Below are positions 15,576 to 62,894 of a stretch of DNA of 64,000 nt, one piece after another. Both the position numbers and the translations under genes were made by a program. This stretch comes from Saccharopolyspora rosea. Its GTDB lineage: Bacteria; Actinomycetota; Actinomycetes; Mycobacteriales; Pseudonocardiaceae. Position 1 is the stretch's first letter, and every line of letters begins with the position of its first letter. The notes under the pieces were generated by a model. The model saw nothing but the letters and a program-made list of their open reading frames with translations. It searched no databases and was not told the DNA's origin. The stretch is from contig NZ_CP102826.1 of NCBI RefSeq assembly GCF_025643595.1, forward strand, positions 1,984,001 through 2,048,000. The letters run 5' to 3'.

Positions 15576-16703
15576 CTACCGGAAGCGGTTCGGGTCGAGG
15601 CGGGAGATGTCGTGCTCGGTGGTCCCGTGCAGGACGAGGTCCGCGCCGATCTCGCCGAACACCGGGGCGAGCTTGAAACCGTGGCCGGAGAAGCCGGTCA
15701 TGACCGTGGCGGCGGCCGAACCCGGCAGCGGGCCGAGGACCGCGTGCTCGTCGGGCGTGAACCCCTCGGCGAAGGTGCCGATGCGCACCGGGTGCGGCAC
15801 CACGCCCGGCAGCAGCCGGGCCGCGGCGGCGGAGGCCGCGCGGGCGAACTCCGAGTCGACCGTGCGCGGCAGCCCCGCCGGGTCGTCGAGCACCGGGAAA
15901 CCCAGGTGGTGCGGGACGATCTTGATCCCCACGCCGTCCAGCGCGGGGAAGCAGGAGAACCCGGCCTCGTGGTGGCGGCGGATCGCGATCGGCAGCCGGT
16001 CCGGGCGGTGCGCCGCGACGTCCCGCGCGGCGAACCAGCACGCGGTGATCTGGCGGACCTCCACCGGCAGGTCCCGCAGCGGCTCCAGCGCGCGGGCCCA
16101 CGGGCCCGGCGCGAACACCACGTGGTCCACGTCGAAAACCGCGTCACCGCACGAGATCCGCCAACCCGAGGCGGTCGGCTCCACCGCGTCGACGCGGTGG
16201 TACGGCAGCAGTCGCGCCCCCGCCGACTCCGCCGCCCGCAACGCGGCCTGCACCGCCGGTTCCGGACGCACCACCCCGGCCGCCGGGTCGAGCACGGCGA
16301 TCTCGCCGTCGTCCAGCCGGTGTTGCGGGAAGCGCGCGTTCGACTCGGCGGCGGTCAGGACCTCGTGGTCCAGGCCGTGCTCCTCGGCGCACCGGCGCAC
16401 GGCCGCGACGTCGGGATGCTCGGCCGGGCCGAGGGTGAGCCCGCCGCACATCGTCAGCAGGTCGGTCGCGGTGCCGCGCTCCAGCTCCCGCCACAGCCGC
16501 TCGGCGCGCCGCAGCAGCGGGACGTACTCGCCGCCCTCCTTGTAGGCGGTGCGGAAGATGCGGGACTCGCCCGCGGACGCGCCCCGGTCGTGGCCGGGGG
16601 AGTAGGTGTCGAAAGCCGAGACGGCCGCGCCCCGGTGGGCGAGCCGCCAGGCGGTCATCGCACCGACCACACCGGTGCCGACTACCGCAACACGTGGAGT
16701 CAT
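15576..16703 (-). CDS. FAD-dependent oxidoreductase, monomeric sarcosine oxidase/N-methyltryptophan oxidase type
   Basis: A 375-residue DAO-family flavoprotein. The Rossmann ADP-binding motif GTGVVG is at 9-14, followed by the RGASAGESRIFR segment that matches the GSSHGxxRxxR signature of monomeric sarcosine oxidases, and the C-terminal GFSGHGFKLAPVFGE motif. These enzymes oxidise N-methyl or other secondary amines to aldehyde, amine and H2O2. In the family, a cysteine a few residues before TPDEH binds flavin covalently; here the stretch is GTFAEGFTPDEH and the cysteine seems absent, suggesting non-covalent FAD. Start ATG with a GGGAGGG site. The 5' flank is a 54-base tandem array. The substrate is unknown. 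Confidence 0.85.
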   Translation of the reverse strand: MTPRVAVVGTGVVGAMTAWRLAHRGAAVSAFDTYSPGHDRGASAGESRIFRTAYKEGGEYVPLLRRAERLWRELERGTATDLLTMCGGLTLGPAEHPDVAAVRRCAEEHGLDHEVLTAAESNARFPQHRLDDGEIAVLDPAAGVVRPEPAVQAALRAAESAGARLLPYHRVDAVEPTASGWRISCGDAVFDVDHVVFAPGPWARALEPLRDLPVEVRQITACWFAARDVAAHRPDRLPIAIRRHHEAGFSCFPALDGVGIKIVPHHLGFPVLDDPAGLPRTVDSEFARAASAAAARLLPGVVPHPVRIGTFAEGFTPDEHAVLGPLPGSAAATVMTGFSGHGFKLAPVFGEIGADLVLHGTTEHDISRLDPNRFR

Positions 16704-16713
16704 GTTCCCTCCC

Positions 16714-16980
16714 GTCGCCCGGCCACCACCCCCCACGGAGGCGCTGACCGCGCCGCTGTTCTCTTCTGTCGCCCGGCCACCACCCCCCCACGGAGGCGCT
16801 GACCGCGCCGCTGTTCTCTTCTGTCGCCCGGCCACCACCCCCCACGGAGGCGCTGACCGCGCCGCTGTTCTCTTCTGTCGCCCGGCCACCACCCCCCACG
16901 GAGGCGCTGACCGCGCCGCTGTTCTTCCGTGGCCCGGCCACCGCGCCCCACGGGGTGCCGACCGCGCCGCTCGGTCGCTC
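16714..16980. repeat. Tandem repeat array, period 54-55 bases
   Basis: Units begin at 16714, 16768, 16823 and 16877 (each starts GTCGCCCGGCCACCACCCC and runs through ACGGAGGCGCTGACCGCG to CTGTTCTCTTCT) and a degenerate fifth begins near 16929. Three of the spacings are 54, 55 and 54, one unit having an extra C. The array fills the gap between the HutC regulator stop and the oxidase ribosome binding site, so it is the 5' leader of the oxidase-symporter transcript. In one leftward frame it reads as an 18-residue repeat, but the one-base indel breaks the frame, so I treat it as non-coding. Confidence 0.9.
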
Positions 16981-17924: not shown

Positions 17925-19073
17925 ATGCTCCCGCTGCAAGGTGTCACCGTGGTCTCGTTGGAACAGGCGGTCGCCGCCCCGTTCGCCACCCGGCAGCTCG
18001 CCGACCTGGGCGCCCGGGTGATCAAGGTGGAACGTCCGCAGGGCGACTTCGCGCGCGGTTACGACACCGCGGTCAAGGGCATGTCGAGCCACTTCGTGTG
18101 GCTCAACCGCAACAAGGAGAGCGTCGTGCTGGACCTCAAGTCCGCCGACGGGCAGCGGATCATGGGCAGGCTGCTGGAGCGCGCCGACGTGTTCGTGCAG
18201 AACCTCGCGCCCGGTGCGGCGGCGCGGCTCGGGTTCGGCGCGGACCAGCTGCGGGAGCGCTTCCCCCGGCTGATCGTGTGCGACCTGTCCGGCTACGGCA
18301 GCTCCGGGCCCTACCGCGACAAGAAGGCCTACGACCTGCTCATCCAGTGCGAGACCGGGTTGGTGTCGATCACCGGCAACGAGTCCGAACCAGCCAAGGC
18401 CGGGATCTCCGCCGCCGACATCGCCGGTGGCATGTACGCCTTCAGCGGGGTGCTGACCGCGCTCTACGAACGCGAACGCACCGGGCGCGGCAGCGCTTTC
18501 GAGGTGTCCCTGTTCGACGCGTTGGGGGAGTGGATGGGCTTCCCCTACTACTACGCGGCGTACGGCGGGCGCGCCCCGCGCCGCGCGGGCGCCCGGCACG
18601 CCGCCATCGCGCCGTACGGGCCGTTCACCGCGGGCGACGGCTCCCGGGTCTTCCTCGGCGTGCAGAACGAGCGCGAGTGGGCGACGTTCTGCGACCGGGT
18701 CCTGGGCCGCCCCGAACTCGCCGCCGACCCCCGCTTCGACTCCAACCCGAAGCGGGTCGACAACCTCGCCGAGCTGCGCGAGGCCATCGAGTCCGCGTTC
18801 GCCGGGCTGACCGGAGCCGAGATCGTCGACCGGCTGGAGGGGGCCGGGATCGCCAACGCCCGGATGCGCACCATGGCCGAGTTCGCCGACCACCCGCAGC
18901 TCGCCGCCCGCGACCGGTGGCGCGAGGTCGACAGCCCGGTCGGCCCGCTGCGCGCCCTGCTGCCGCCGGTCACGGTCGCCGGCCGGGAACCGCGCATGGA
19001 CCCGGTCCCCGAGGTCGGCGAGCACACCGACGCGGTCCTCGCCGAACTCGGGGAGGAACCGTTCGGCGCCTGA
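17925..19073 (+). CDS. CaiB/BaiF-type CoA-transferase (family III)
   Basis: A 382-residue family III CoA-transferase moving CoA between carboxylic acids. Seen: LGARVIKVERPQGDF near residue 31, WLNRNKESVVLDLK near 60, and the YDLLIQCETGLVSITG segment; the catalytic aspartate of the family is expected at the conserved YD (about residue 137). ATG at 17925 follows GGAAGGAGAG. It is divergent from the HutC regulator and faces the thiolase operon across dispersed repeat locus A. It may activate the same organic acid that the acyl-CoA genes downstream oxidise. No substrate can be named. Confidence 0.87.
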   Translation: MLPLQGVTVVSLEQAVAAPFATRQLADLGARVIKVERPQGDFARGYDTAVKGMSSHFVWLNRNKESVVLDLKSADGQRIMGRLLERADVFVQNLAPGAAARLGFGADQLRERFPRLIVCDLSGYGSSGPYRDKKAYDLLIQCETGLVSITGNESEPAKAGISAADIAGGMYAFSGVLTALYERERTGRGSAFEVSLFDALGEWMGFPYYYAAYGGRAPRRAGARHAAIAPYGPFTAGDGSRVFLGVQNEREWATFCDRVLGRPELAADPRFDSNPKRVDNLAELREAIESAFAGLTGAEIVDRLEGAGIANARMRTMAEFADHPQLAARDRWREVDSPVGPLRALLPPVTVAGREPRMDPVPEVGEHTDAVLAELGEEPFGA

Positions 19074-19082
19074 GCTGAGTGC

Positions 19083-19357
19083 CTGTCTTTGAACTCGTTT
19101 TGCGTGGCGGTGCCGGGAGCGGAACCTCAGCGGCCGTCTCGCTCCGGGAGCCCCTCCTGATGTATGTCCAATACACGGCGGAGGGGCTGTCCTCGCGAGA
19201 CGGCCGCTGAGAACCCGCGGCGGTGCGGGTTGCGAGACCGCTCACCGAAAGAGAAAGCGGCTCCGCCGCTTGCCACGCCCCTTCCGGGAGCAGGTTCAAA
19301 GACAGGCACTGAGGTTCCGCCGGCGGCACCGCCTCGCAGAACGAGTTCAGGGACAGG
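19083..19357. repeat. Dispersed repeat locus A (largest copy)
   Basis: This fills the convergent gap between the CoA-transferase and the thiolase-like gene. Modules: CTGTCTTTGAACTCGTTTTG at 19083, continuing to GCGGTGCCGG; a long hairpin with arms CTCAGCGGCCGTCTCG (19126-19141) and CGAGACGGCCGCTGAG (19196-19211) enclosing AGCCCCTCC/GGAGGGGCT; CTCACCGAAAGAGAAAGCGG at 19241; TTCAAAGACAGGCACTGAGG near 19296; and an inverted copy of the first module ending near 19357. The same modules recur at 22999-23078, 42682-42842 and 47060-47175. No transposase frame is present. Confidence 0.85.
19126..19211. terminator. Putative bidirectional terminator hairpin in repeat locus A
   Basis: Perfect 16-base inverted arms at 19126-19141 and 19196-19211, with a second 9-base nested stem (AGCCCCTCC and GGAGGGGCT) inside. 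It is placed between two convergent genes, so RNA from either side would fold into it. There is no T-tract, so the function as a terminator is inferred from position. Confidence 0.5.
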
Positions 19358-19369
19358 CGGGATGCTCGG

Positions 19370-20515
19370 TCAGAGCGTGCCCTCGGTGCCGAACAGGGCG
19401 GTGACCTGGCTGGACAGCACGCCGCCGTTGCCGTGCGCGAGCGCCACCTCGGCGCCGTCGACCTGGCGCGGTCCGCACTCGCCCCGCAGCTGGCGGACCG
19501 CCTCGATGATGGTGAAGATGCCGTACATCCCCGGGTGGCAGTAGGACAGGCCGCCGCCGTTGGTGTTGACCGGGAGTGCGCCGCCGGGCGCGATCCGGCC
19601 GTCCGCGACGAAGCCACCGCCCTCGCCCTTGGCGCAGAAGCCGAGATCCTCCAGGAACAGGACCGGGTTGATGGTGAACGCGTCGTAGAGCTCGACGACG
19701 TCTACATCGGACGGACGAAGTCCGGCCATCCGGAAGGCCCGGGCGCCCGAGTCGACCGCGGCGGTCGTGGTCAGGTCCGGCATCGCGGAGATGCTGCGGT
19801 GCGAGGTCGCCTCGCCCGCGCCGAGCAGGAAGACCGGCCTGCCCGGCGACCGCCGCGCCCGGTCCGCGCCGGTGACCACGACCGCCCCGCCGCCGTCGGT
19901 GACCAGGCAGCAGTCCAGCGCGGTCAGCGGATCGCTGATCATGCGCGAGGACAGCACGTCCTGCCGCGTCAGCGGTTCGCGCGCGAACGCCGCCGGGTTG
20001 AGCCGTGCCCACTGCCGCGCGGCCACGGCCACGTCGGCCAGTTGTTCGCGCGTGGTGCCGAACTCGTGCATGTGCCGGGCGGCGGCCAGGGCGTACATGC
20101 TGATCGGGTAGCGCGGCCGGTACGGCGCCTCGTACGGGTTCGGCTTGGACGGGGAGACGAGCCTGCCGCCGTCGGAGCGCTGGGTGCTGCCGTAGACGAT
20201 CAGCGCCGTGGTGCACAGCCCCGCCCCGATCGCGGCCGCCGCGTGCAGCAGGTGGCTGACGAACGAACTGCCGCCGATCGTGGATCCGTCCACGTAGGAC
20301 GGACGGATGCCGAGGTACTCGGCGGTGTCCATGCCGGACATCGGGTAGTACGACGACGCGGTGAACAGACCGTCCACTTCGGACTTCGGGATCCCGGCAT
20401 CGGCCAGCGCCCGCACCGCCGCCTGACCGGCCAGGTCCAGCGGGGACATGCCGGGCACCTCGCCCAGGTCGGACTCGGCGACGCCGACGACCGCGGTCGT
20501 CCCGCGCGGGCTCAT
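19370..20515 (-). CDS. Thiolase-like acyl-CoA acetyltransferase/lipid-transfer protein
   Basis: A 381-residue thiolase-fold protein of the SCP-x/lipid-transfer group. It begins TTAVVGVAESDLG and contains the ELYDAFTINP and GGALPVNTNGGGLSYCHPG signatures of the C-terminal half. The N-terminal nucleophile position, normally GGCG or similar, reads TIGGSSFVSH, so the classical cysteine is missing, as is common in this subgroup. These proteins are usually encoded beside a DUF35 partner, as here: the next upstream gene overlaps by four bases (ATGA). It probably cleaves or condenses an acyl-CoA side chain. The start is chosen from that overlap. Confidence 0.85.
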   Translation of the reverse strand: MSPRGTTAVVGVAESDLGEVPGMSPLDLAGQAAVRALADAGIPKSEVDGLFTASSYYPMSGMDTAEYLGIRPSYVDGSTIGGSSFVSHLLHAAAAIGAGLCTTALIVYGSTQRSDGGRLVSPSKPNPYEAPYRPRYPISMYALAAARHMHEFGTTREQLADVAVAARQWARLNPAAFAREPLTRQDVLSSRMISDPLTALDCCLVTDGGGAVVVTGADRARRSPGRPVFLLGAGEATSHRSISAMPDLTTTAAVDSGARAFRMAGLRPSDVDVVELYDAFTINPVLFLEDLGFCAKGEGGGFVADGRIAPGGALPVNTNGGGLSYCHPGMYGIFTIIEAVRQLRGECGPRQVDGAEVALAHGNGGVLSSQVTALFGTEGTL

Positions 20516-20877
20516 GCGGCTCCCTCCCGGAACACCGCCACCGGTGCCCCGTCTTCGTCGACGACGGCGAACGAGACCCGGGTGCCGATCGCGACCTCGT
20601 CCGGGGCCGTGCCGTCGATCCGGGTCATCATGCGGAATCCCTCGTCCAGGTCGACCAGTGCGACGTTGCGCACCCCGTCGCGGCCGCGCACCGCCGTCGT
20701 GGAGTAGACGGTGCCGCGCCCGCCACTGCGCTCCCAGGCCAGGTCGTCGGCGCCGCAGGACGGGCACAGGGCGCGGGGTGGGAACACCGCCGCCGCGCAG
20801 CCCCGGCACCGCTGGAACCGCAATTCCCCGGCGGCCAGGCCCTCCCGGAACACCCCGTCCGGAGACCGTTCGCTCAT
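20512..20877 (-). CDS. DUF35/OB-fold zinc-ribbon partner of the thiolase
   Basis: A 121-residue protein. Residues about 15-45 form a rubredoxin-like zinc ribbon with two CxxC pairs (CRGC and CPSC), followed by an OB fold (GTVYSTTAVRG, RMMTRIDG). In acyl-CoA and steroid metabolism such proteins form complexes with thiolase-like partners and are needed for their activity. It overlaps the thiolase gene downstream and the acyl-CoA synthetase gene upstream by four bases each, so all three are translated as a coupled unit. A strong GGGGAGGAG site precedes the ATG. Confidence 0.88.
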   Translation of the reverse strand: MSERSPDGVFREGLAAGELRFQRCRGCAAAVFPPRALCPSCGADDLAWERSGGRGTVYSTTAVRGRDGVRNVALVDLDEGFRMMTRIDGTAPDEVAIGTRVSFAVVDEDGAPVAVFREGAA

Positions 20878-22997
20878 CCTCGCTCCTCCCCACCGGTCAG
20901 CACCGCCAGGCAGTCCACCGCCACCGCGCCCCGGCCCTCGGCGCCCAGCAGCAGCGGGTTGACGTCGAGCTCGGCGACGTCGTCGGCCAGGTCGGCGGCC
21001 AGCCACGACAGGCGGGCCACCACGTCGGCCGCGGCGTCCAGGTCGCGCGCCGGTTCCCCGCGCACCGGGCCGAACAGCGCGCTGCCCCGCAGCGACAGCA
21101 GCAGCCGCCGCGCGCCGTCGACGTCCAGCGGCGCCACGGCCACCCGGCTGTCGGCGAGCACGTCCACCAGCACCCCGCCGACACCGACCACGACGACCGG
21201 GCCGAACGCGGGGTCGTGCTTGATGCCGACGAGCAGTTCGGTGCCGCCGTCGGCCATCCGCTGCACGAGCAGCCGGGCGTGCGGATCGCCCGCTCGCGCC
21301 GCGACGGCCCGCAGTTCCTCGGCGGCGGCGCGGATCTCCTCCGGTTCGGTCAGGCCCAGCCGGACTCCACCGATGTCGCTCTTGTGCCCGATGCGGTCGG
21401 ACAGCACCTTGACCGCCACCGGACCGCCGAGGTCGCGGGCCGCCGCGACGGCCGAATCCCCGTCGGTGGCGGGAAAAGCGCCCGCGCACCGGACGCCGTA
21501 GGCGGCGACGAGCCTGCTCGACTCGTGCTCGTCGAGCTGCACCCGGCCGCGCTCGCGGGCCGTCCGCACGACGGCGCGGGCCACCCGGTCGTCCACGTCG
21601 TCCGGGCGTCGCGGCGAGGGCAGCGGTGGGCGCAGGCTGAAGTCGGCGAGCGCGCCCAGCGCGGCCGCGGCCCGCCCCGGGTCGGTGAAGCACGGGATGC
21701 CCAGCTCCCGCAGCCGCTGCCGAGGACGTCCGCTGCCGCCGGTCCACACCACGACCAGCGGTCGGTCGGTGGCCCGGTGCGCCTGGTCGATCGCGTCGAC
21801 GATCAGTTCGGCCCCCTTGTCGGCGTTCCCCAGCAGGACCGCGATGAGGTCGGTGTCGGGGTGCTCGACGGTCACCCGCAGCGCCCGGCGCAGCATGTCC
21901 GGATCGCTGAGCAGCGTGGCGGTGAGGTCCACCGGGTTGGCCGGGGAGCCGTAGTCCGGGATGACCTCGGCCATCCGCCGCTGCCACGCCTGCTCCCACA
22001 CCGGTACCCGCAGGCCGTGACCGCCGGCGAGGTCGGCCATCAGCACCCCCGCGCCGCCGGACAGCGACAGCGTCGTCAAGCGCCGTCCCCGGGCGCGCCG
22101 CCGCGTGGCGAACACCTGCGCGGCGTCCAGCAGCGGCTCCATGCCGTCGAGCCGGACGATCCCGAACTGCCGTGCGGCGCCGTCGAAAACGGCGTCCTCC
22201 CCGGCCAGCGACGCGGTGTGCGAGCGGGCCGCGCGGGCGCCCGCGGCGGAGCGGCCGACCTTCACCGCGAGGATCGGCTTGTCCAGCTCGTGGGCCCGCC
22301 GCGCGACCCGCAGCAGGTCCCGGCCGCGGTGCACGCCCTCCAGGTAGGCCATCAGGACGGCGGTCGACTCGTCGTCCACCAGTCCGCCGAGGATCTCGGC
22401 GACCGACAGGTCCGCCTCGTTGCCGGTGTTGAGGTAGTGCGAGATGCCGATGCCGCAGCGCTGCGCCTCGCTGAAGATGAACGAGCCGAACGCGCCGCTC
22501 TGGCTGACGAACGCGACCGGTCCCTCCCGCAGGTCGACGTCCTCGTCCAGCGCCGAGGTGAACGTCGGCACCGCCCGGTCCCGGACGCTCAGCATGCCCA
22601 GGCAGTTCGGGCCGAGGACGCGGATGCCGGTCTCGGCGACGATCGCCTCCAGCTCCCGCTGGAGCACCGCGCCGCGCTCGCCGGACTCGGCGAAGCCGGC
22701 GGCGCCGACGATCGCGACCGCCACGCCGCGCCGCGCGCACGCCCGCAGCCCGTCGGCGACCTGGTCCGCGCTGAGCATGACCATGGCGACGTCGATGTCG
22801 CCGTCCACGGCGTCCAGGTCCGGGTGGGCGGGCAGGCCCTGCACCTGCGCCCGGTGCGCGTTGATCGGCAGGATCCGGCCGGTGAAGCCGAACCGCTTGA
22901 GGTAGTCGACGGGCCGGCCGGACAGCTTGACCGGGTTGTCGGAAGCGCCCAGGACGGCGATCGAGCGCGGGTGGAGGAGCTTGCGGATCGCGTGCAC
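20874..22997 (-). CDS. NDP-forming acyl-CoA synthetase (acetate-CoA ligase family)
   Basis: A 707-residue single-chain enzyme with the full domain order. The CoA-binding Rossmann domain starts LLHPRSIAVLGASDNP near residue 6; the succinyl-CoA ligase-like domain carries the phosphohistidine loop RSHTASLAGEDAVF; and a C-terminal ATP-grasp (from about residue 480, with DLGGPVAVKVLSDRIGHKSD) completes it. It would make acyl-CoA from acid, CoA and ATP via a phosphohistidine. The GTG at 22995-22997 is chosen because the frame further upstream runs into dispersed repeat B and no family sequence is lost; AGGGG lies just before it. First gene of the coupled three-gene unit. Confidence 0.87.
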   Translation of the reverse strand: MHAIRKLLHPRSIAVLGASDNPVKLSGRPVDYLKRFGFTGRILPINAHRAQVQGLPAHPDLDAVDGDIDVAMVMLSADQVADGLRACARRGVAVAIVGAAGFAESGERGAVLQRELEAIVAETGIRVLGPNCLGMLSVRDRAVPTFTSALDEDVDLREGPVAFVSQSGAFGSFIFSEAQRCGIGISHYLNTGNEADLSVAEILGGLVDDESTAVLMAYLEGVHRGRDLLRVARRAHELDKPILAVKVGRSAAGARAARSHTASLAGEDAVFDGAARQFGIVRLDGMEPLLDAAQVFATRRRARGRRLTTLSLSGGAGVLMADLAGGHGLRVPVWEQAWQRRMAEVIPDYGSPANPVDLTATLLSDPDMLRRALRVTVEHPDTDLIAVLLGNADKGAELIVDAIDQAHRATDRPLVVVWTGGSGRPRQRLRELGIPCFTDPGRAAAALGALADFSLRPPLPSPRRPDDVDDRVARAVVRTARERGRVQLDEHESSRLVAAYGVRCAGAFPATDGDSAVAAARDLGGPVAVKVLSDRIGHKSDIGGVRLGLTEPEEIRAAAEELRAVAARAGDPHARLLVQRMADGGTELLVGIKHDPAFGPVVVVGVGGVLVDVLADSRVAVAPLDVDGARRLLLSLRGSALFGPVRGEPARDLDAAADVVARLSWLAADLADDVAELDVNPLLLGAEGRGAVAVDCLAVLTGGEERG

Positions 22998-22998
22998 G

Positions 22999-23078
22999 GT
23001 GCCCCTAACTGTCTCGAACTCGTTTTGCGCGGCGGTGCCGGTTGCCGGACCGCTCACCGAAGGGGAGAAAGCGGCCAA
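22999..23078. repeat. Dispersed repeat locus B
   Basis: A short copy holding module 1 (CTGTCTCGAACTCGTTTTGC at 23009, then GCGGCGGTGCCGG) and the CTCACCGAAGGGGAGAAAGC module at 23053. It lies between the acyl-CoA dehydrogenase gene and the acyl-CoA synthetase gene on the same strand, directly abutting the synthetase start, so it forms that gene's leader or separates the two transcripts. Confidence 0.8.
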
Positions 23079-23129
23079 CTCTGCGCGCCGTCGCCCTCGC
23101 GGACCTGTTCGAAGACGTGCCCGCAGGCA

Positions 23130-42449: not shown

Positions 42450-42701
42450 ATGGACGATGTCCGGTGCGAACGCCGATGGGTGGGCGACGGGTGGCGCGAA
42501 GCCCGCTCGCAGCGCTGCATGACCAACCTCGGAATGCTGCGCGAGCCGCTGGCGGGCATCGAGCTCGACACCCGCGACCACGCCGCGCTGACCTGGCTGG
42601 CCGACCAGGACGTCGAGACGGTCGCGCTGATCCGCAGCCTGTTCGAGCGAGCCCGCGCAGCCGGGCCGATGTGCCCCAGCAGGTCTTTGAACTCGTTTTG
42701 A
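42450..42701 (+). CDS. Small hypothetical protein ending inside repeat locus C
   Basis: An 83-residue protein without recognised domain: MDDVRCERRWVGDGW at the start, then a helical segment TLGMLREPLAG-like (read NLGMLREPLAG) and DTRDHAALTWLADQDVETV with LIRSLFERAR. It looks like a genuine small actinobacterial gene: AGGGAG lies seven bases before the ATG. Its last codons (SRSLNSF and the TGA) are supplied by module 1 of the dispersed repeat, so the original C-terminus may have been replaced by repeat insertion. Confidence 0.55.
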   Translation: MDDVRCERRWVGDGWREARSQRCMTNLGMLREPLAGIELDTRDHAALTWLADQDVETVALIRSLFERARAAGPMCPSRSLNSF

Positions 42702-42842
42702 GTTGGACATACATCAGGAGGGGCTTCCGGAGTCGAGACGGCCGCTGAGGTTCCGCCGCCGGCACCGCCACCCAAAACGAGTTCGAAGACAGGCACTGAG
42801 GTTCCGCCACCGGCACCGCCTCGCAAAACGACTTCAAAGACT
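42682..42842. repeat. Dispersed repeat locus C
   Basis: This holds module 1 (GGTCTTTGAACTCGTTTTG, 42682), then the inverse of locus A's central module (TTGGACATACATCAGGAGGG at 42703 through GAGACGGCCGCTGAGG), and two tandem inverted module-1 copies (CGGCACCGCC to AAACGAGTTCGAAGAC, 42757-42790; and again at about 42799-42842). It lies between two convergent genes and provides the stop codons of both (TGA at 42699-42701 on the plus strand, TGA at 42834-42836 on the minus strand). Confidence 0.85.
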
Positions 42843-43367
42843 GGCTCTGCGGCGGGAGCGGTAGGTGCGCATCTTGTGGCGGGCTCCGCAGATGTCCATG
42901 CTGCACCAGGTGCTGTTGTTGGCGGGGGAGCGGTCGTAGAACAGCCACCGGCAGTCGGGTGCGCGGCACACCTTCAGCCGTCCGGCGCGTCCCGCCAGGT
43001 CCTCGGTCAGCAGCACGGCCAGCACTCGGCCGATCACGCCGTCCACCGCCGAACCGGCGCGCACCGGGATCGACGGCGCGCCGTGCTGCCAGCGCGGGGG
43101 CGCCAGCAGCCGGGCGGCGAACTCGTTGGCCGCCGCGGAGTCCTCCCCGGCCAGGTGGGTGCGGATCGCCTCGCGGGCGCGCACGAGTTCCCGCCGGGCC
43201 GCGTCGTCCAGTTCCACGGCGGCCTCGTGCCACTCGCGGTCGCGCAGCCACCGGCGGGTGCCGTCGAGGTCGGCGAAGGCGTCCTCCTCGTGCAGGAAGC
43301 GGGCCGAGTTGCCGAAATCCTCCACGGTCCGCAACGGTTCCGGGGCGGCAGGCCGGTCGTACACCAC
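42834..43367 (-). CDS. CGNR zinc-finger regulator
   Basis: A 177-residue protein of the same type as the one at 36601. An ABATE domain (RTVEDFGNSARFLHEEDAF, then LDDAARRELVRAREAIRTHL) is followed by a zinc finger with CRAPDCRWLFYDRSP, then CSMDICGARHKMRTYRSRR, where the CGAR variant replaces CGNR. The final residues and stop codon lie in dispersed repeat C. It is divergent from the alpha/beta hydrolase gene, with a perfect GGTAACGTTACC palindrome between them, so it probably represses that gene. GTG/ATG choice: the start at 43367 gives the complete domain. Confidence 0.85.
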   Translation of the reverse strand: MVYDRPAAPEPLRTVEDFGNSARFLHEEDAFADLDGTRRWLRDREWHEAAVELDDAARRELVRAREAIRTHLAGEDSAAANEFAARLLAPPRWQHGAPSIPVRAGSAVDGVIGRVLAVLLTEDLAGRAGRLKVCRAPDCRWLFYDRSPANNSTWCSMDICGARHKMRTYRSRRRASL

Positions 43368-47054: not shown

Positions 47055-47059
47055 CGCCT

Positions 47060-47175
47060 CAGAGCCCGTCTTCGAACCTGGTACCGAAGGGTTCTCGGTA
47101 AGCGGCGTGAGCCGCTTTCTCTTTCGGTGAGTACACCCGCAACCGGCACCGCCACGCAAAAGGAGTTCAAAGACA
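47060..47175. repeat. Dispersed repeat locus D
   Basis: This fills the convergent gap between dinB and the phosphoesterase gene. It contains the inverse of the CTCACCGAAAGAG module (GCCGCTTTCTCTTTCGGTGA at 47111) and an inverted module 1 (CGGCACCGCCACGCAAAAGG to AGTTCAAAGAC, 47142-47173), plus a GGTACCGAAGGGTTCTCGG stretch with its own hairpin potential (AAGCGGCGTGAGCCGCTT at 47100-47117). Confidence 0.85.
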
Positions 47176-47178
47176 AGA

Positions 47179-62782: not shown

Positions 62783-62894
62783 TGCGCGGCCGCTCGCCGA
62801 GAGGCGCTGCAACGGACCTGGGTCCGCCACGCTCGGCCAGCGGTACGGACGACAGAGCACGGTAAGGGCGCCTCCTGCGAGGAGGCGCTTTTTT
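62783..62894 (+). ncRNA. S-adenosylhomocysteine (SAH) riboswitch with terminator
   Basis: The leader of ahcY folds into the SAH aptamer: P1 CCGCT/AGCGG (62790-62794, 62839-62843), P2 GCCGAG/CTCGGC (62796-62801, 62832-62837), the core GAGGCGCTGCAAC, a small hairpin CGGAC-CTGG-GTCCG (62813-62826), and the 3' pseudoknot strand GGTAAGGGCGCCTC (62861-62874). The pseudoknot pairs GAGGCGC (62801-62807) with GCGCCTC (62868-62874). The latter is also the 5' arm of the terminator GCGCCTCCT-GCG-AGGAGGCGC-T6 (62868-62894). SAH binding would therefore block termination and turn ahcY on, as known for this class. Confidence 0.85.
62868..62894 (+). terminator. Regulated terminator of the SAH riboswitch
   Basis: Nine-bp stem GCGCCTCCT/AGGAGGCGC with a three-base loop and six T residues. 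Its 5' arm overlaps the pseudoknot strand of the aptamer, so the two structures exclude one another. Confidence 0.85.

Follow-up and report, generated by a model that had tools for sequence, protein, structure and literature searches.

Why does one set of sequence modules recur, in different orders and orientations, at gene ends of a Saccharopolyspora chromosome (6.56 Mb, 72% GC)? The question arose from a window of 64,000 nucleotides (the whole stretch of DNA that was analysed), in which a sequence-only reading had placed such modules at four loci, here A to D (19083-19357, 22999-23078, 42682-42842 and 47060-47175), and had taken them for either a genome-specific, non-autonomous element or a repeat-derived terminator system. 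All modules were recovered within a few bases of these coordinates, and according to our gene calls the four loci are indeed intergenic, with A, C and D lying between convergent genes and B between codirectional ones. The features of the four loci and of the neighbours of locus A are as follows (window coordinates).

17925 to 19073, plus strand: upstream gene of locus A, CoA-transferase family III, with its TGA stop codon at 19071-19073.
19076 to 19078, no strand: left target-site duplication of locus A, TGA, read directly and identical to the right one.
19079 to 19309, plus strand: complete MITE of locus A, 231 bp, TIR GTGCCTGTCTTTGAAC...GTTCAAAGACAGGCAC, whose 14-bp end is also the end of an IS5-family IS.
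19095 to 19238, minus strand (2003095-2003238 of the genome, minus): structured core of locus A, matching covariance model R1 with 163 bits, itself one of the 37 sequences in R1; it shows covariation, and the minus strand is the one apparently selected as a single strand.
19255 to 19271, minus strand: second hairpin with T-rich tail at locus A, terminator-like, facing left.
19310 to 19312, no strand: right target-site duplication of locus A, TGA.
19313 to 19358, minus strand: inverted left-module remnant of an older copy, in whose CTGAG the MITE sits.
19370 to 20515, minus strand: convergent neighbour of locus A, thiolase-like, its stop facing the element.
About 23009 to 23120, plus strand: locus B, short form in a codirectional gap, left end and right arm without the central hairpin (model positions 6-43 joined to 140-232).
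About 42682 to 42848, minus strand: locus C, composite of left end, inverted half hairpin and left module, followed by a further left module (model positions 1-102 and 1-53).
About 47059 to 47178, minus strand: locus D, short form without the central hairpin, between convergent genes (model positions 141-237 joined to 4-45).

The modules belong to a genome-wide family that far exceeds these four places: the left module had 207 matches in the genome with up to 3 mismatches, compared with 0 for a reversed-pattern control, and this number is accordingly beyond chance. The complete unit was a MITE of ~231 bp; the sequence of locus A folded far more stably (-188.7 kcal/mol; z = -9.94) than its shuffles, which averaged -127.75. 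Identical triplets flanked 25 of the 32 complete MITEs (mean of 13.2 under shuffled pairing; none of 2000 shuffles reached 25), and 59 of the 64 flanking triplets were TNA; most of the complete copies in this genome came from the best-scoring fetched loci, which biases these counts toward intact copies. The same genome also contained a partner IS of ~962 bp (960-963 bp; ends GTGCCTGTCTTTGATC...GATCAAAGACAGGCAC), of which 10 copies were found, all 10 with identical 3-bp TNA flanks and nine hosted by sequence of the repeat family. The IS transposase matched NF033580 (IS5 family) with 167.3 bits, compared with a cut-off of 110 (E = 4.5e-49), as well as PF01609; its TNA-duplicating group within IS5 is presumably IS1031-like. 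Fourteen identical bases are common to the right end of the MITE and the IS end, and the identity between MITE and IS is smaller at the left.

These results support the view of a non-autonomous element, with TIRs, TNA target duplications, nested insertions and a partner of the IS5 family, and the shared ends suggest that the MITE was most likely moved in trans by the IS transposase. The absence of a transposase, as noted previously, holds for the four loci themselves; the matching IS, however, is located elsewhere in the same genome. A match to a known IS-derived MITE applies only in part: the element is IS-derived, as judged by comparison with the IS of its own genome. A RAYT/REP system was set aside because the element has TIRs, TNA duplications and a partner of the IS5 family.

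The module orders can be followed at individual copies. At locus L002 the MITE was inserted in an older copy, the MITE and IS insertion sites CTCAG/CTGAG lie at module borders, and in the consensus the part missing from loci B and D is flanked by two direct repeats, GCGGTGC. The shuffled orders result from insertion of MITEs and ISs into one another at CTNAG and from deletions; the short forms may have arisen by recombination or slippage between the internal GCGGTGC repeats. By sequence comparison, loci A to D represent copies of a single ~231-bp MITE, some complete, others shortened or nested.

We analyzed how the target site relates to the location at gene ends. CTNAG occurred at 36.6 sites per kb at stop codons (73 sites), 1.2 in intergenic DNA (142 sites), 0.56 in coding DNA (410 sites) and 9.0 inside repeats (88 sites); its density at stop codons accordingly exceeded that in the remaining intergenic DNA and in genes by a factor of 30 to 65. 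By number, most sites fall in coding DNA. In 864 kb of sampled sequence (the window and two 400-kb blocks, G+C 0.72, with genes called by a purpose-made codon-usage finder), 95 hits formed 55 islands, of which 28 lay in convergent, 21 in codirectional and 6 in divergent gaps, compared with 126, 425 and 125, respectively, among all 676 gaps (Fisher's exact test for the convergent excess, P = 1.3e-8). None of the 55 islands fell within a predicted gene. Insertion at a TGA stop codon would duplicate the stop and spare the gene, and a TNA duplication that regenerates the stop in this manner would be a simple route to a harmless transposon in a GC-rich genome. Exact insertion at a stop codon was found for eight of the 36 left ends and five of the 32 right ends; because 55 of the 68 MITE ends are not exactly at a stop codon and most CTNAG sites are coding, the placement follows the stop-codon rule only in part. 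For the remainder, insertions between genes would have to be tolerated and those within genes lost; together, the density of CTNAG at stop codons and in repeats, and loss inside genes, would lead to both the gene-end location and the self-nesting.

Inside the MITE lies a structured core of ~144 nt, which 35 of 150 relatives possessed by BLAST, so that the modules cannot be called genome-specific as had been proposed. A pattern scan of genome contigs detected at least 113 core stretches, and the hosts among the 80 stretches listed included Saccharopolyspora species, Halopolyspora and Amycolatopsis. With covariance model R1, matches were obtained in 33 of 397 genomes of the order, including the window's own, all 33 belonging to the same family, and in 2 of 394 genomes in a sample of the class, namely the own genome and one more of the family; these large searches scored 5-8 candidates per genome, and per-genome counts are accordingly not copy numbers. 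In the own genome, 122 of 150 scored candidates were core matches at E ≤ 0.001. The NCBI taxonomy assigns S. hirsuta and A. bartoniae to the Pseudonocardiaceae and leaves Halopolyspora unplaced. Among the genomes sampled, the core is confined to the window's family; no match was found in phages, plasmids or viral contigs, a collection from which records very near the window's genome were possibly left out. A group of matches in the own genome (for example 4789069-4789264, 3381177-3381371 and 117756-117950) extended over ~195 nt as compared with 144, as if ~50 nt had been inserted.

Against Rfam 15, the window gave no core match at the gathering cut-off, and five core loci searched at E ≤ 10 gave sub-threshold matches only; identity with an Rfam family was rejected for the core, as no score exceeded any gathering cut-off in the loci searched. 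The one match in the window at the gathering cut-off lay elsewhere, namely a SAH riboswitch at 62793-62867 (39.8 bits; gathering 37). A tRNA-Glu(ttc) called by ARAGORN at 22146-22215, inside a predicted gene on the minus strand (20874-22997; CoA-binding/ATP-grasp protein), is probably a false call, with no Rfam tRNA match at the gathering cut-off.

We next describe the core structure. Of 138 copies, 46 passed a limit of <86% identity; removal of nine truncated or interrupted copies and addition of L001 gave an alignment of 38 sequences, and omission of L139 one of 37. Family-wide, both sides had changed in 21 of 35 pairs (37 sequences; none of 500 shuffles was as high), and double changes amounted to 166 cells compared with 52.5 expected, with none of 500 shuffles as high on any of five measures. 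When the structure was slid along the core, only 38-48% of cells remained paired. The core also contains conserved unpaired bases, in particular invariant internal-loop bases.

Such conservation could be explained by an ordinary IS5-derived MITE and nothing more, in which the hairpin is conserved because the copies are recent descendants of few masters. The TIRs, the target duplications and the IS partner are in line with this, as is the finding that the best-scoring copies are mostly 87-96% identical to locus A. However, compensatory changes were also found where few copies exist. In one genus, all seven genomes contained 1-4 core matches, and in five of these genomes the core lies 15-34 nt after gatB (GatB was HMM-checked at one locus). 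Among the five gatB-linked orthologues, 96.8% of cells were paired and both sides had changed in 9 of 37 pairs; no shuffle of 500 was as high on four measures, and 69 of 500 were on the fifth. As judged from these alignments, the gatB-linked covariation points to selection in place, beyond descent from a recent master, and if the core has no host function, it would need another explanation.

The mismatches in the core are strand-asymmetric, which would also be unexpected under neutral descent. In 72 non-redundant copies, the non-Watson-Crick cells of the gene-sense strand comprised 97 C·A and 22 G·U, a count that used the antisense-derived structure, possibly favouring antisense, and that omits pairs with few standard pairs, including two in which C·A prevails almost without exception. 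The antisense strand folded better in 64 of the 72 copies (P = 2e-12 for the C·A/G·U asymmetry and 6e-12 for the antisense-folding excess, with cells and copies treated as independent). With a sense-derived structure, the 38 sequences displayed the same direction (27 C·A and 11 G·U). The consensus energies were -58.6 (antisense) and -42.9 (sense) for the 38 sequences, but in the alignment of 72 copies the two strands hardly differed (-27.4 and -27.7). Taken as sequence evidence, these patterns indicate that selection acts on one strand of the core, the one that is antisense with respect to the gene usually found upstream. The C·A and G·U counts and the better antisense folding accordingly imply that the orientation in which locus A had first been read is the complement of the selected strand.

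The core is older than the window's MITE, and in other species it occurs apart from the ends of that MITE. S. hirsuta possesses a second MITE (63 end matches, compared with 0 in a reversed control) with ends GTTTCAATGAGGTTTTTCC / GGATGAAAAAGGCTCAATTGAAAC, which are unrelated to those of the first, and the same core lies between them. The core was present in 25 of 30 fetched loci of this second MITE, contig ends having cut three of the other five, and both ends were visible in 15 copies from several loci. Copies of this second type frequently do not coincide exactly with a stop codon; no partner transposase was found among the predicted proteins of the 30 fetched loci, compared among themselves. 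Our best guess is that no fewer than two MITE families have carried the core as cargo and thereby spread it. Both the same core between unrelated ends and its retention where TIRs are mostly unrecognisable (see below) argue against recent descent from a few masters as the whole explanation, and together with the gatB-linked changes and the mismatch asymmetry they render it unlikely. Overall, these comparisons make it probable that the family is an IS5-mobilised MITE that carries an older, structured and strand-selected core. Should the core in addition act at gene ends, this would be a tangible example of a structured module that serves the host and is transported by MITEs.

The position of the core in relatives shows a polarity. 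Of 169 copies, 76 lay between codirectional genes in the sense orientation and 22 in the reversed one (P = 4e-8; orthologous copies among these relatives are not independent), 52 were convergent, 6 divergent and 13 at locus edges. No core was located inside a gene among the 156 relatives' copies with both neighbours. A stop codon of the sense gene was present within 60 nt upstream of the core in 108 of 174 copies, and among 100 copies chosen for a gap of 20-60 nt, 82 had a stop-to-core gap of 34-47 nt. The stop codons of these 100 copies were TGA in 72, TAG in 22 and TAA in 6, compared with a background of 792/134/35 (P = 0.04). TGA is accordingly not preferred, and the TNA-target rule cannot explain all anchoring, as TAG is not TNA. 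A recognisable 12-nt TIR (at least 10 of 12) was found in 5 of the 100 stop-anchored copies, with about 0.6 expected. As a separate observation, the convergent gaps at L018 (own genome) and L117 (Halopolyspora) have homologous flanking genes and both contain the element; its orientation relative to these genes seems to be opposite in the two, which hints at independent insertion.

Regarding the function at gene ends, one candidate is a sense-direction terminator of the preceding gene, co-opted from a repeat as has been suggested for the pneumococcal SPRITE. The frequent site just after stop codons, the stable hairpins and the enrichment in convergent gaps of the own genome (28 of 55 islands) are consistent with this candidate, and at locus A a crude scan detected a sense-direction, terminator-like stem that spans the gene end (19060-19081). 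However, selection falls on the strand opposite to the sense strand of the usual upstream gene, the loop sequence is invariant, and a second hairpin with a sense-direction tail of at least 5 T was found in 0 of 28 own copies and 0 of 137 copies of relatives. Since the antisense strand is selected and the sense T-rich tail is absent in these copies, this was rejected as the main explanation, and we consider it improbable.

For the repeat-derived terminator proposed earlier, the results are divided: on the antisense-facing strand, a second hairpin followed by a T-rich tail was present in 27 of 28 scored copies of the own genome, but a tail of at least 5 T was found in only 3 of 137 scored copies of relatives. 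A plain intrinsic terminator therefore does not explain the conservation of the core. On the antisense strand, the flanks of the core are rich in C (0.49 and 0.45) and poor in G (0.22 and 0.21) against a background of 0.34 and 0.36, as are Rho-loading sites. The pattern used to gather the relatives' core copies required conserved flanks and missed divergent copies, so that the invariance of the flanks is partly by construction.

On the basis of the polarity bias after stop codons, the antisense T-tailed hairpin and the C-rich, G-poor flanks, we tentatively favour a core that acts as a directional element, stopping or disarming antisense transcription that enters the gene from its 3' side, although we regard this as possible rather than probable. 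The core would then close gene ends to antisense transcription in the manner of a one-way block, and, if this is true, it would offer a handle on how GC-rich actinobacteria limit antisense transcription. The main rival to such a block is an expressed antisense or small RNA read from the minus strand of the core and having a protein partner of its own, such as RNA polymerase or Rho, with the gene end being where antisense transcripts start or pass. Conservation of unpaired bases, the G·U bias and the covariation all fall on one strand, in favour of such an RNA; no promoter-like site was found near locus A by a crude sigma-70 scan, which speaks against it, and we consider an RNA of this type rather unlikely. 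For the directional block, the invariant internal-loop bases are a difficulty: they suggest a specific partner, and termination leaves them unexplained. The near absence of the T-rich tail in relatives and the sense-direction stem at locus A also speak against the block.

Integron attC sites follow stop codons with a fixed polarity, and it is their bottom strand that folds. A single-stranded DNA site, in which a bottom-strand hairpin is used by a recombinase in a manner functionally like attC, would account for the one-strand folding, the adjacency to stop codons and the polarity bias of the core. In contrast to integrons, no integrase or array was noticed (attC boxes were judged by eye), and the window element has TNA duplications and TIRs. 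Moreover, no linked recombinase was noticed among the neighbours at 15 core loci of 16 fetched (first 60 residues, by eye), and the gatB-linked copy stays put in five genomes. We consider a site of this type very unlikely. HEARO/IscB, TnpB-guide, bridge-RNA and retron elements were considered as further candidate readings and tentatively set aside.

Short of an even chance, though a real possibility, is that the core represents an undescribed structured family of the Pseudonocardiaceae (RNA or single-stranded DNA) that is selected on the antisense strand. A genome could then contain up to a hundred or more copies, each immediately following a stop codon and forming a one-way 3' barrier, and unrelated MITEs would repeatedly have captured the module and spread it as cargo. 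Provided that it functions at gene ends, the core would be a standard, transposon-spread 3'-border part of many genomes in the Pseudonocardiaceae, a family that includes the producers of erythromycin and spinosyn.

Several known systems resemble the window family in part. IS5-derived MITEs in general are, like this one, short and intergenic, with TIRs shared with an IS and a short target duplication; the present MITE differs in its structured core, which is common to a second MITE and to TIR-poor copies, and in nesting at its own CTNAG. The mycobacterial MIRUs are likewise dispersed repeats of actinobacteria, with TGA-containing insertion sites and a fixed orientation to genes, and in these traits they resemble the window family; they are shorter and lie in operons. 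The closest described behaviour is that of the pneumococcal BOX, RUP and SPRITE repeats. BOX is modular, RUP and BOX were proposed to be mobilised by ISs, the repeats insert into one another, and SPRITE is enriched at 3' ends, with a suggested co-option as terminators (PMC3049150). These repeats occur in a different host and are likened by behaviour; unlike them, the core has one-strand covariation and a post-stop polarity across genera. A review of MITEs likewise mentions repeats that insert into one another and terminator-like elements (PMC10969869), and a word search of its main text returned neither 'stop codon' nor 'actinobacter'. The titles and abstract openings that searches of the open-licence PMC literature brought up contained no description of the window repeat family; this literature includes a study of sRNAs in S. 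erythraea (PMC3827479).

A second repeat was observed in the window, namely a 54-bp tandem repeat (CCCGTCGCCCGGCCACCACCCCCCACGGAGGCGCTGACC...) at 16703-16951. Sequence that closely resembles it, and that may accordingly be either an additional module or a separate family of repeats, also occurs beside or within the MITE copies L004, L015, L017, L027 and L028, and beside the IS copies L054, L058 and L060.
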